The notes below the pieces were generated by a model that saw nothing but the letters and a program-made list of their open reading frames with translations, did not search any database and was not told the DNA's origin. DNA of 64,000 bases from an uncultured Prevotellaceae bacterium (lineage in GTDB: Bacteria > Bacteroidota > Bacteroidia > Bacteroidales > Bacteroidaceae), in NCBI GenBank assembly GCA_947165505.1, contig CAMVAT010000009.1, forward strand, positions 34,968 through 98,967, given 5' to 3'. Positions 13,685-40,748 of the stretch are shown here, piece after piece. Both the position numbers and the translations under genes were made by a program. Position 1 is the stretch's first letter. Every line of letters begins with the position of its first letter.

Positions 13685-13751
13685 CAAAGGTAAAAAAACG
13701 TTATTTTTTTCGCATTGCCAGATGATACACAGACTTTGCAAAATGTTACAT
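13685..13751 (-). promoter_or_regulatory. xusA promoter with 21-bp-spaced half-sites
   Basis: On the minus strand TACCTTTG (13685-13692) matches the Bacteroidetes -7 box TAnnTTTG. No TTG is seen at -33. Read on the plus strand, GATACAC (13724-13730) and GTTACAT (13745-13751) are exactly 21 bp apart with the spacer AGACTTTGCAAAAT. The nearer site begins 32 bp from the box, as at the other promoters of the set. The leader to xusA is about 90 nt. Confidence 0.75.
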
Positions 13752-13776
13752 TCCGCTCTACATCGGGGCTGACAGG

Positions 13777-15789
13777 CTATTTTATGAGTGTTTTACGTCC
13801 GTTAACAATATATAACCCTTCATGCGGCGGATGGTTTTCCATGATGCGCCGGCCTTGCAAATCGTAGATGCCGCGGGGTGCATTTTGTAGTGATTCATGT
13901 ATTCCGACCTCGTCGATGGCGGTGGCTGGGTTCACTCCGTCGTTGCTCAGGAACACCTCTTTGATGCTCACCTCACCGGCGCCGGTGGTCCAGAAGCCTA
14001 CGATATAGATGTGCGAGGGATCCATCAGCTCGTTGTTGCTCTTGCGGCGCATCTGTTGCAGGTCGATGACCAGTTCGGTCTTTGTGCCGAAGTCGTTCTC
14101 GCAGGCGCCGCTCCAATAGCTGTTCTGGTCGAAGAGGCGGAACGAGGCTCCGCAGTTCTGCTGCCTGTTGAGTCGCGCCACGATATAGCGGTAAGCCGAC
14201 AGGTCGATGCCGCTGCCATACTGCCAGCCGCCGAACCCCCACTGCCCGGTGTGCAGGTTGCCTGTGGCGGGGTTGAAGGTGCCCGTCTCCCAGATGCTGG
14301 GATTGAAGCCGTCGGCGGTGAGTGGGAAGTACGACACCAAGACCGTGACCTGATAGTCGTGCGTCTGCCCTTGCGGGTCGGTGTAAGAAACATCGATGGT
14401 GGCCGTGCCCTGCCCTGCGGCCACGAGCGTGCCGCCACGGACGGTCACCACACCCGGGTTGCTCACGGTGTATGTCGCGTCGCCCGCCACGTCGAGCACC
14501 AGTCCGTCGGTGGTGGTGGCGGTGAGGGGGAGTGCGAGCGCCGTGCCGGGCAACATAGTAATAGAGGTACGCGCGAGGGTGACACCCGTCACCGTCGGTG
14601 TCCACCCGTCGGCGCGCTGCCGCGCATACTCCTGATACCAGTGATAGCAAGGCCAGGGGCATGCCTCGGGGTCGGTGAGGAATGTGTACTGCCCGTCGGC
14701 CGGTGCCTGATCGCAGAACTGTGCCAGCAGTTCGCCGCCCGTGAAGAGCAGCCAGCTCACGTTGCCACTCTCGTCGGCCAGCCGTTTGAAGTTGGCGCCG
14801 AAGCCCTGTCCGCCCGCAGTGCCGGTGTATGACTTACCCCACGAACTGTCGTATTTGTTGGGTGCCCAGTCCATCTCGGTCACCACGATGGGTGCGAAGC
14901 TGCTGCACGGGGATATCTGGTCTTCCCATCCCCGCTTGAAGTCGGCGTAGTTGATTTCCACATTGTCGTCGCCATGGTTGCCGTTGTACCATCCGGGATA
15001 GCAGTGCACGGCATATCCGATATTCTCGCCCTGCACCGGTGTGGCTGCAAAGCCGGCGTATTGCGACTGCCATCCCAGTCCGGGAATGAGCAGGATATTG
15101 TCGCATCCGTTGGCACGTATCTGATCGACCACGGGCTGGATGTAACGGGCCATCTCGTCGGTGCCCGCCTTCTGCCCGTCGGCATTGAGGATGCTGATGG
15201 GCTCGTTGGCCAGTTCAAACATGATGCCGGGATTGTTTTTCAGTCGCAGGTCGCGGCTCACGATGTCCCACACGGTCTTGAGATACTGCTGATAGGCGTC
15301 GCCCACGCGGATATTGTCAGGGCAGACGCCCGGCGGGCGCATCACCACATAGAGGCCTTTGTCGATGGCATAGAGCGCCATCGGCACAAACACCTCGTTG
15401 AGGTATTTCTTAAAGCGGTTGACATCGAAGTGCGAGATGTCGTTCTCCTGGATGCCATAGATGCCCGGTGTGTTACTCCAATAGGGGTCCATGTGCTGGC
15501 GCACGAAGTCCATCTTCCATCCCGCGGCGAGGATGCCGTCGATGATACCTTTATTATATTTGAGGCATCCCTGCACATCGTAGTTCGTCCATCGCTTGCC
15601 CTGCTCGTTAAACCAGGGGCTGAACGTCTGTGCGAACCCGTGCAGGTTGACGATGCGTCCGGCATCGTCTTTGAAATAGCGGCCCTCGACATGGAGCGGG
15701 GGCACCGTGGCCATGGCCGCAGCAGCCATGAGCGCAATCGTCCATAAGAGTAGTAGTTTCTTCATGCTTTTCTTCATGCTTTTCTTCAT
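13777..15789 (-). CDS. secreted GH5-family glycoside hydrolase with Ig-like and CBM-like regions
   Basis: 670 residues. A signal peptide is followed by a GH5-type (beta/alpha)8 barrel (about 30-395). Glu196 in ELANEP is the expected acid/base and Glu305 in VVTEMDW the expected nucleophile. A bacterial Ig-like domain (about 400-485) and a beta-rich region (about 490-620) follow. The chain ends with the RGIYDLQGRR ... YIVNGRK tail shared with the two giant proteins nearby. The substrate (xylan, glucan or mannan) cannot be read from sequence. The N-terminus repeats MKKS twice before MKKLLLLW, so starts at 15789, 15777 and 15765 are all possible. Its promoter has the same half-site pair as xusA. 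Confidence 0.85.
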   Translation of the reverse strand: MKKSMKKSMKKLLLLWTIALMAAAAMATVPPLHVEGRYFKDDAGRIVNLHGFAQTFSPWFNEQGKRWTNYDVQGCLKYNKGIIDGILAAGWKMDFVRQHMDPYWSNTPGIYGIQENDISHFDVNRFKKYLNEVFVPMALYAIDKGLYVVMRPPGVCPDNIRVGDAYQQYLKTVWDIVSRDLRLKNNPGIMFELANEPISILNADGQKAGTDEMARYIQPVVDQIRANGCDNILLIPGLGWQSQYAGFAATPVQGENIGYAVHCYPGWYNGNHGDDNVEINYADFKRGWEDQISPCSSFAPIVVTEMDWAPNKYDSSWGKSYTGTAGGQGFGANFKRLADESGNVSWLLFTGGELLAQFCDQAPADGQYTFLTDPEACPWPCYHWYQEYARQRADGWTPTVTGVTLARTSITMLPGTALALPLTATTTDGLVLDVAGDATYTVSNPGVVTVRGGTLVAAGQGTATIDVSYTDPQGQTHDYQVTVLVSYFPLTADGFNPSIWETGTFNPATGNLHTGQWGFGGWQYGSGIDLSAYRYIVARLNRQQNCGASFRLFDQNSYWSGACENDFGTKTELVIDLQQMRRKSNNELMDPSHIYIVGFWTTGAGEVSIKEVFLSNDGVNPATAIDEVGIHESLQNAPRGIYDLQGRRIMENHPPHEGLYIVNGRKTLIK

Positions 15790-40612: not shown

Positions 40613-40680
40613 AAAAATATCGATATTCAAAAAAATGCTCATCTCATCAGGTCAAAACGAGCCACCGCCGTTTGATTTCG

Positions 40681-40748
40681 CAAAATTACACATAATAGAT
40701 AAAAAAAACGACGATTTCCCGTTACATAAATGTCACAAAATGTTACAT
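40681..40748 (-). promoter_or_regulatory. promoter of the esterase-led hydrolase operon
   Basis: Minus-strand TAATTTTG at 40681-40688. GTTACAT occurs twice, at 40721-40727 and 40742-40748, exactly 21 bp apart, and the nearer begins 33 bp from the box. This is the best-preserved half-site pair in the window. CAAAATGTTACAT (40736-40748) is shared with the xusA site. The same pair lies upstream of the divergent HTCS promoter and could also affect it. Confidence 0.75.

Follow-up and report, generated by a model that had tools for sequence, protein, structure and literature searches.

The window, a stretch of 64,000 nucleotides (nt) from the genome of an uncultured Prevotellaceae bacterium, carries a xylan cluster together with the gene of a hybrid two-component system (HTCS) regulator that starts at position 40837. 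Seven sites in this cluster share an element made of two direct repeats and a -7 box, and we estimate at roughly 0.72 the probability that these predicted operators let the 40837 HTCS activate the xylan operons and, from two of the sites, predicted small RNAs. Along the direction of transcription the element reads TGTAAC-N15-TGTAAC-N31/32-TAnnTTTG. The seven sites had been recognized in an initial annotation of this DNA, and its coordinates for all of them are correct (Table 1). The two half-sites are exactly 21 base pairs (bp) apart at every site, with a gap of 31-32 nt to the TAnnTTTG box, an arrangement far above chance. The GTTACA half-sites described as shared do occur at all seven, in a more degenerate form than the title of that annotation implied. 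Within the window, spacing 21 gives four GTTACA pairs with no more than one mismatch in 12 positions, whereas the 52 other spacings tested (8 to 60) average 0.29 such pairs and never exceed one. When the boxes are taken as the starting point, 7 of the 17 CAAANNTA boxes on the forward strand have a pair (at most four mismatches in 12) at offset 39 (five boxes) or 40 (two boxes). Under the same pair criterion, 33 other offsets on the forward strand give two cases in total, and 35 offsets on the other strand, with 13 boxes, give three.

None of the seven sites has a -33-like TTG, defined as a TTG lying wholly between 17 and 23 nt ahead of the box, compared with 3 of the 13 other TAnnTTTGC boxes in the window, that of the HTCS gene included; the carboxylesterase (CE) site has a TTG starting 17 nt before its box, just outside the criterion. 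The presence of TTG at the regulator's own promoter and its absence from all seven sites fit activator-dependent targets and an independently expressed regulator, and support the dependence on an activator proposed in the initial annotation. The common spacer AGACTTTGCAAAAT is not filler, as it holds a second conserved element of the half-site. This element was delimited in alignments of 13 window-type sites (seven from the window and six from relatives) and of 16 xusA sites of another type, named after XynR, which is said to be a multidomain regulator of xylan genes in Prevotella bryantii (reportedly described by Miyazaki in 2003). The 40837 HTCS would likewise be a regulator of xylan genes and falls in the same broad group. 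The genome holds a second HTCS, a paralogue at C92:24-4001 that is about 46% identical to the 40837 protein; from its gene context we take it to be of the XynR type, from which the 40837 protein differs in both helix-turn-helix (HTH) segments compared. In both alignments the second element starts about 11-13 nt after each TGTWAC start. In the window type it is a loose GCAA, with G in 10 of 13 sites at both copies, and in the XynR type it is AAA, in 16 of 16 distal copies and 13-16 of 16 proximal copies. Each predicted half-site is thus bipartite, approximately TGTAACAnnnnGCAA in the window type, with its second part loose, and TGTTACAnnnnnnAAA in the XynR type. Bipartite half-sites are expected of an AraC-type domain, which has two helix-turn-helices.

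Spacing and register are conserved in related genomes. The xusA promoters have spacing 21 and a gap of exactly 31 in 18 of 19 loci, our own included, with L146 as the only miss. A relaxed operator pattern and an RNA motif, both defined on earlier loci, were then applied to a fresh set of 60 further HTCS upstream regions (L267-L326), the next by rank in the HTCS homologue listing with G339 omitted; 56 were usable after regions shorter than 300 bases (L273, L276, L277 and L290) were dropped. The fresh set has 40 sites at spacing 21 and gap 31, against a mean of 0.35 over the 224 other combinations of spacing and gap. The only other strong combination, spacing 21 with gap 29, has 18 sites; we read these as the same pseudo-palindromic operator turned towards the box of the HTCS gene itself, a hint of autoregulation in XynR-type loci. 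The window differs from these loci, its HTCS box lying farther from the operator. As for individual sites, the operator of the 1018-amino-acid (aa) protein is also present in one relative (G385, L152), and the operator of the esterase operon, next to the HTCS gene, keeps both GTTACA copies intact in 3 of 3 orthologous regions.

The initial annotation had named, as grounds for its own rejection, matches at random positions as frequent as those at promoters of glycan genes. In the part of this check that was run, the site model matches glycan genes and not random positions. A profile model (R1) gave 54 matches in the genome at E values up to 10, 150 of 1642 first-look candidates being scored; the counts below cover ranks 1-30, while ranks 31-54 also include some full-length matches (9-12 bits), and the label "glycan gene" was assigned by eye after the fact. 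Ranks 1-7 are the seven window sites, on which the model was trained. Rank 8 (E 2e-5), which was not used in training, lies at C9:19847-19915 before a run of GDSL esterase, MFS, GH10 and GH43 genes that is divergent from GH67. Down to rank 16 there are eight full-length matches outside the window (E 2e-5 to 0.13), and seven precede a glycan-related gene (GDSL esterase, GH3, GH97, BD-FAE, a SusC-like fragment on C92, GH10 and GH31). Among the partial matches (ranks 15 and 17-30), only 1 of 15 does so (KduI), and the excess among full-length matches is significant (Fisher p 0.0002). The sole non-glycan case among the eight (C25:28638-28705, L168) stands before a BspA-type leucine-rich repeat protein.

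The sites labelled orphan and GH5 had been listed among the seven promoters. Each of them runs into a predicted terminator and is the likely source of a short RNA, which two relatives share in the orphan case and one relative in the GH5 case. No gene lies directly behind the orphan operator, where the terminator hairpin is a strong one. At the orphan site, the genomes G385 and G327 keep the operator, the gap of 31, the box and much of the sequence; in the three genomes the 50-100 nt after the box vary in sequence and length and are followed by 36 identical nt and then by a hairpin. The orphan stretch of 177 nt folds at a z score of -3.6. A small open reading frame (ORF) of 44 aa was considered as the product of this RNA and rejected, since neither G385 nor G327 has a counterpart of it that includes a start; no ORF in this RNA is conserved. 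Small RNA 2, at the GH5 site, has about 78 nt that are nearly invariant between the window and G385, and both flanks have diverged. As the ATG of GH5 lies 34 nt past the end of this RNA, expression of GH5 would need read-through. A folding-based test, written last and with cut-offs fixed before it was run, detects a terminator-like hairpin downstream of the orphan box and of the GH5 box but of no other box among the seven; it replaced a stricter hairpin finder without bulges that had given five candidates and then three in the fresh set. The sequence AATAAYAGTTTTAGCAG is common to both RNAs and has no other occurrence in the genome at up to one mismatch. At the C92 HTCS the order is comparable, with operator, box, TTTTAGGTTAGTTATGGTTAGTA and a hairpin whose T tail is weak, and the TTTTAGGTTAGTTATGGTTAGTA motif has one further match in the genome, at three mismatches.

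Comparable stretches occur elsewhere in the genus. Of the 56 usable fresh regions, 38 contain an operator, and in 20 of those 38 TTTAGGTTA or TTAGYAGTT lies no more than 130 nt past a box; the motif occurs 31 times in 5,699 nt after operators and nine times in 127,611 nt elsewhere. Across the 44 operators of this set, a terminator-like hairpin follows 15 of the 20 that bear the motif and none of the 24 others. In an alignment of ten RNAs chosen by us, the terminator has nine predicted pairs, five of them with changes on both sides. UUAG is counted 69 times in 22 RNA-like regions, against 32.1 (standard deviation 4.7) after shuffling, and seven times against 6.4 in 21 direct-gene leaders. A model of RNA 1 gave three strong and eight weak matches across 398 genomes, and two of the three weak matches with an operator are near xusA. 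Extra copies of the orphan block were also sought among weak BLAST matches (102 of 398 genomes, mostly short) and rejected, since none of seven loci inspected by eye had both operator and terminator. The trait that the predicted RNAs have in common is an HTCS operator, a short unstructured conserved stretch and a terminator.

A pattern produced by chance or by general promoter composition has next to no probability. TAnnTTTG boxes and AT-rich leaders are common, and some random pairs occur at other spacings, but the combined spacing and register stands far above neighbouring cells in the window, at the xusA promoters and in the fresh set, and the excess of 40 sites over a mean of 0.35 refutes a chance origin. 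A more substantial alternative, which we nevertheless regard as unlikely, is that the operators are read mainly by the XynR-type HTCS on C92, or by both HTCSs, and not by the 40837 protein alone. The XynR-type model gives 26.1 bits to the window GH5 site and 25.7 to the xusA site, and with matrices that leave out each family in turn (window type against XynR type) the scores are 24.4 against 25.3 for xusA and 7.8 against 15.2 for the orphan site; having no better score with the window-type matrix, these two sites might answer to the C92 regulator. One of 16 XynR-type sites (L149) also scores better with the window matrix. With the same left-out matrices, five of the seven window sites favour the window type, and box A has a central A in 11 of 14 window half-sites but a central T in 28 of 32 XynR-type ones (Fisher p 3e-5, the orthologues not being independent). 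The SusC-side operator on C92 receives 46.1 bits from a XynR model built without that site and 16.2 from the window model, and it is the 40837 gene that adjoins the perfect site kept in all three orthologous loci. The two HTH segments, presumably the recognition helices, are SRVHLFRKMKE and SPSSFSRKFK in the 40837 HTCS and in all three of its orthologues; in most XynR-type HTCSs, H replaces F in the first, and the second is NAASFSTIFK or similar (NSASFSTIFK on C92). With a second HTCS of different half-site in the genome, the link of the window operators to the 40837 HTCS gains support. The regulator proposed in the initial annotation is thus likely, the operators fitting a dimeric AraC-type HTCS, but it may not be the only one, since the XynR-type matrix scores the xusA and orphan sites at least as well as the window-type matrix.

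For the RNAs, the two terminator-ended stretches could be attenuators or leaders that stop transcription unless there is read-through, instead of stand-alone small RNAs. In its favour is the GH5 site, where the terminator lies 34 nt before the start codon with no room for another such promoter; small RNA 2 might instead be a 5' leader of GH5 that is attenuated. The orphan RNA, by contrast, is followed after about 200 nt by the giant gene's own operator and promoter; in the fresh set, the RNA is divergent from the HTCS gene in 19 of 20 motif-bearing regions and a second operator stands farther on in six; and the conserved stretch is inside the RNA and not in the spacer after it. Attenuation at both sites appears improbable to us on this evidence. 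Slightly less probable still is that the short RNAs serve as a protein sponge through UUAG repeats, in the manner of Csr-type RNAs. UUAG is doubled over shuffles in the RNA-like regions and not in the direct-gene leaders, and RbpB of B. thetaiotaomicron is reported to bind GUAGGAUA (PMC12119571, which in its accessible part cites another paper for this). The orphan RNA, on the other hand, is not enriched in UUAG, and a search for RRM_1 at E 0.001 that was positive in Bacteroides ihuae had no match in our genome, which is 99.77% complete; without an RRM_1 protein, an RbpB-type sponge is unlikely in this organism.

Besides the scores of the xusA, orphan and L149 sites and the position of small RNA 2, several results weigh against operators and small RNAs under the control of the 40837 HTCS. 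By the pattern used, 18 of the 56 fresh regions have no operator, and in a sequence-blind test of 29 more distant HTCS loci lag 21 was indistinguishable from controls. Covariation in the hairpin of RNA 1, over three genomes, is not above that of shuffles (150 of 500), and the hairpin test misses the C92 RNA and two near-copies of it (L284 and L318). An HTCS operator precedes only three of the eight weak matches to the RNA 1 model, one of them poor. The fresh counts are not independent, because several RNAs are near-copies of each other, and a single RNA family is not proven because RNA 1 is not UUAG-rich (1 against 1.0 expected). Target predictions are also weak, with no convincing pairing partner found. 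A search with the 30-nt complement matched its own locus only, and the 17-mer complement had 16 matches against 12 for the control. Among 183 starts, the longest complementary run is 11 nt, at the start of the 1018-aa gene (1 of 183, z -2.0). The best pairing z scores of the three own RNAs, over at most 20 own regions each, are -2.0, -2.1 and -2.7, uncorrected; at the xusA starts of relatives (five genomes, with rough start positions) z ranges from -1.5 to +1.4, and 20 HTCS leaders have a mean z of -0.51 (standard error 0.24) compared with -0.15 (0.21) for controls.

In the mechanism that we favour, the 40837 HTCS would sense xylan fragments and phosphorylate its own receiver domain. Its AraC-type domains, as a dimer, would then occupy both half-sites, which lie two turns apart on the same DNA face, placing the bound activator against RNA polymerase at promoters that have no -33 element. 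The small RNAs would be made together with the xylan enzymes and would most probably act in trans, using their unstructured middle part to base-pair with other mRNAs; our confidence in this last step is low. We also lean, less firmly than for the operators, towards the wider proposal that Prevotella xylan HTCSs control an undescribed family of small RNAs, with two paralogues that each have their own RNAs and are insulated by one base. One operator beside the HTCS gene would drive a terminator-ended, mostly UUAG-rich RNA, and a single DNA element would thus let xylan sensing turn on a trans-acting RNA regulator along with the enzymes. The insulating base would be the central one of box A (TGTAAC or TGTTAC), which altered recognition helices would distinguish.

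HTCS regulons are mostly viewed as sets of enzymes and transporters. Should the sensor make dedicated small RNAs as well, glycan ranking and cross-talk in Prevotella would gain a post-transcriptional layer that begins at the same operator. With its fixed register (TGTWAC, 15 nt, TGTWAC, 31 nt, TAnnTTTG), the element offers a simple rule for finding targets of xylan HTCSs in unannotated gut genomes, and the pair of paralogues allows a direct test of operator insulation between HTCSs, in which one base pair or one helix is swapped.

The operators are a further case of a known kind. According to the accessible part of Ravcheev et al. 2013 (PMC3878776), 16 of 36 HTCSs of B. thetaiotaomicron have predicted operators that are direct repeats with a mean distance of 21 bp, located upstream of operons of polysaccharide utilization loci (PULs), and a dimer was proposed to sit on one DNA face, two turns apart; because of these repeats of about 21 bp, the core of the operator finding was known in kind. 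As in predictions of that type, the window operators are direct repeats at about 21 bp, stand upstream of PUL operons co-located with the HTCS and are conserved in orthologous loci. They differ in belonging to a Prevotella-type xylan HTCS, in their bipartite half-sites, in a fixed 31-nt gap throughout the genus and in leading into short RNAs; the register to the -7 box and RNA targets are not discussed in the portion of PMC3878776 available. In B. xylanisolvens, a second xylan locus is already known to be under HTCS control.

The predicted RNAs are a new variant of PUL-linked small RNAs, of which DonS antisense RNAs, GibS and FopS are known, the last two from PMC11697453 and PMC7366714. Like FopS and GibS of Bacteroides thetaiotaomicron, they are short, have an unstructured conserved stretch and are linked to polysaccharide use, and FopS RNAs likewise end in a terminator hairpin. 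The same excerpts describe FopS as about 65-70 nt long, with the seed at its 5' end, canonical promoters and binding by RbpB; the window RNAs, in contrast, lie behind an HTCS operator, vary in their 5' part and belong to a genome in which RRM_1 has no match. DonS-type RNAs are also small and PUL-associated but, in the text available, antisense to susC homologues, whereas the window RNAs are intergenic and on the strand of the neighbouring genes. At the gathering score, Rfam has no family in the window sites or in the loci of eight relatives, the presence of FopS in the Rfam copy used being unconfirmed; below that score, the window RNA sites match unrelated families (E 0.06-0.5). HTCS-driven small RNAs in Prevotella have no description in the literature searched, a search with most subscription papers and preprints outside its scope.

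The window has a G+C content of 54.8% and belongs to contig C9 of a 3.85-Mb genome. According to Pfam, its xylan cluster comprises the xus run, GH5, the 1018-aa protein, the 1990-aa dockerin ORF, the carboxylesterase and further genes, among them a 682-aa protein without Pfam match, two GH43 proteins, GH97, a two-domain esterase and the complete HTCS. The name xusA is that of the initial annotation, and the other xus gene names are tentative.

Table 1. Positions of genes, predicted operators and predicted small RNAs in the window; half-sites are given as near/far with their start positions
Feature	Position	Strand	Details	Basis
xus operon	373..13588	-	SusC, SusD, SusC-like (Plug), SusD, DUF5627 protein, GH10 xylanase	Pfam; operon predicted from spacing
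xus operon, operator and -7 box	13685..13750	-	GATACA (13724)/GTTACA (13745)	
GH5 gene	13777..15789	-		Pfam
Predicted small RNA 2 (GH5 site)	15824..15914	-	about 91 nt; hairpin 15845-15824, then T tail	start predicted
GH5 site, operator and -7 box	15916..15981	-	GTTACA (15955)/GTTACA (15976)	
1018-aa protein gene	16539-19595	-		no Pfam match
1018-aa protein, operator and -7 box	19661..19727	-	GTAACG (19701)/GTTACA (19722)	
Giant protein gene	20332-26304	-	1990-aa ORF, type I dockerin match	Pfam
Giant protein, operator and -7 box	26319..26384	-	GTTACG (26358)/GTTACA (26379)	
Predicted small RNA 1 (orphan)	26588..26750	-	variable 5' part, conserved block, terminator	start predicted
RNA 1, terminator	26611-26588	-	stem-loop and T tail	
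RNA 1, 36-nt block	26652-26617	-	identical in three genomes	alignment
Orphan site, operator and -7 box	26757..26822	-	GTACCA (26796)/GTTTCA (26817)	
Carboxylesterase gene	27093-28571	-		Pfam
Carboxylesterase, operator and -7 box	28597..28662	-	GTTACA (28636)/GTAACC (28657)	
Esterase and GH97 genes	36605..40642	-	esterase with SASA and Esterase domains; first genes of esterase operon	Pfam; operon predicted from spacing
Esterase operon, operator	40681..40747	-	GTTACA/GTTACA at 40721-40726 and 40742-40747; -7 box 40681-40688	
HTCS gene, own promoter	40796..40803	+	-7 box; TTG in -33 region	
HTCS regulator gene	40837..44901	+	1354 aa	Pfam

The 40837 protein has, in one chain, Reg_prop repeats, Y_Y_Y, HisKA, HATPase_c, the receiver (REC) and an AraC-type HTH_18 domain in Pfam, that is, the propeller sensor, kinase, receiver and AraC-type HTH of an HTCS. 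Its closest named relatives are from Prevotella and from metagenome-assembled genomes of Prevotellaceae, and its orthologues in L004, L005 (G327) and L003 (G385) are 71-84% identical. The receiver motif is NHVP in this protein and SHIP in the C92 paralogue; an S/CHIP motif is reported in most HTCS receivers and tied to inhibition of the DNA-binding domain (PMC11253607, accessible part).

Both the 1990-aa dockerin ORF and its 1018-aa neighbour stand behind HTCS operators. In the GH43-GH8 ORF (31247-33802), the GH8 part is broken by an in-frame stop at 31247-31249 on the reverse strand, and similarity to the GH8 of a relative runs on past this stop to about 30809; in the relative L004, two separate ORFs encode GH43 and GH8. 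To the left of the window, at C9:15888-25495 (L220 and L221), there is a second cluster, for xylan oligomers, with GH35/42-like, GH67, GDSL esterase, MFS, GH10 and GH43 genes, and the rank-8 operator sits between its GH67 and GDSL esterase genes. L221 also encodes (9518-11824), beside a GH95 gene, a 768-aa protein with Reg_prop, Y_Y_Y and HTH_AraC domains and no kinase or receiver match in Pfam.

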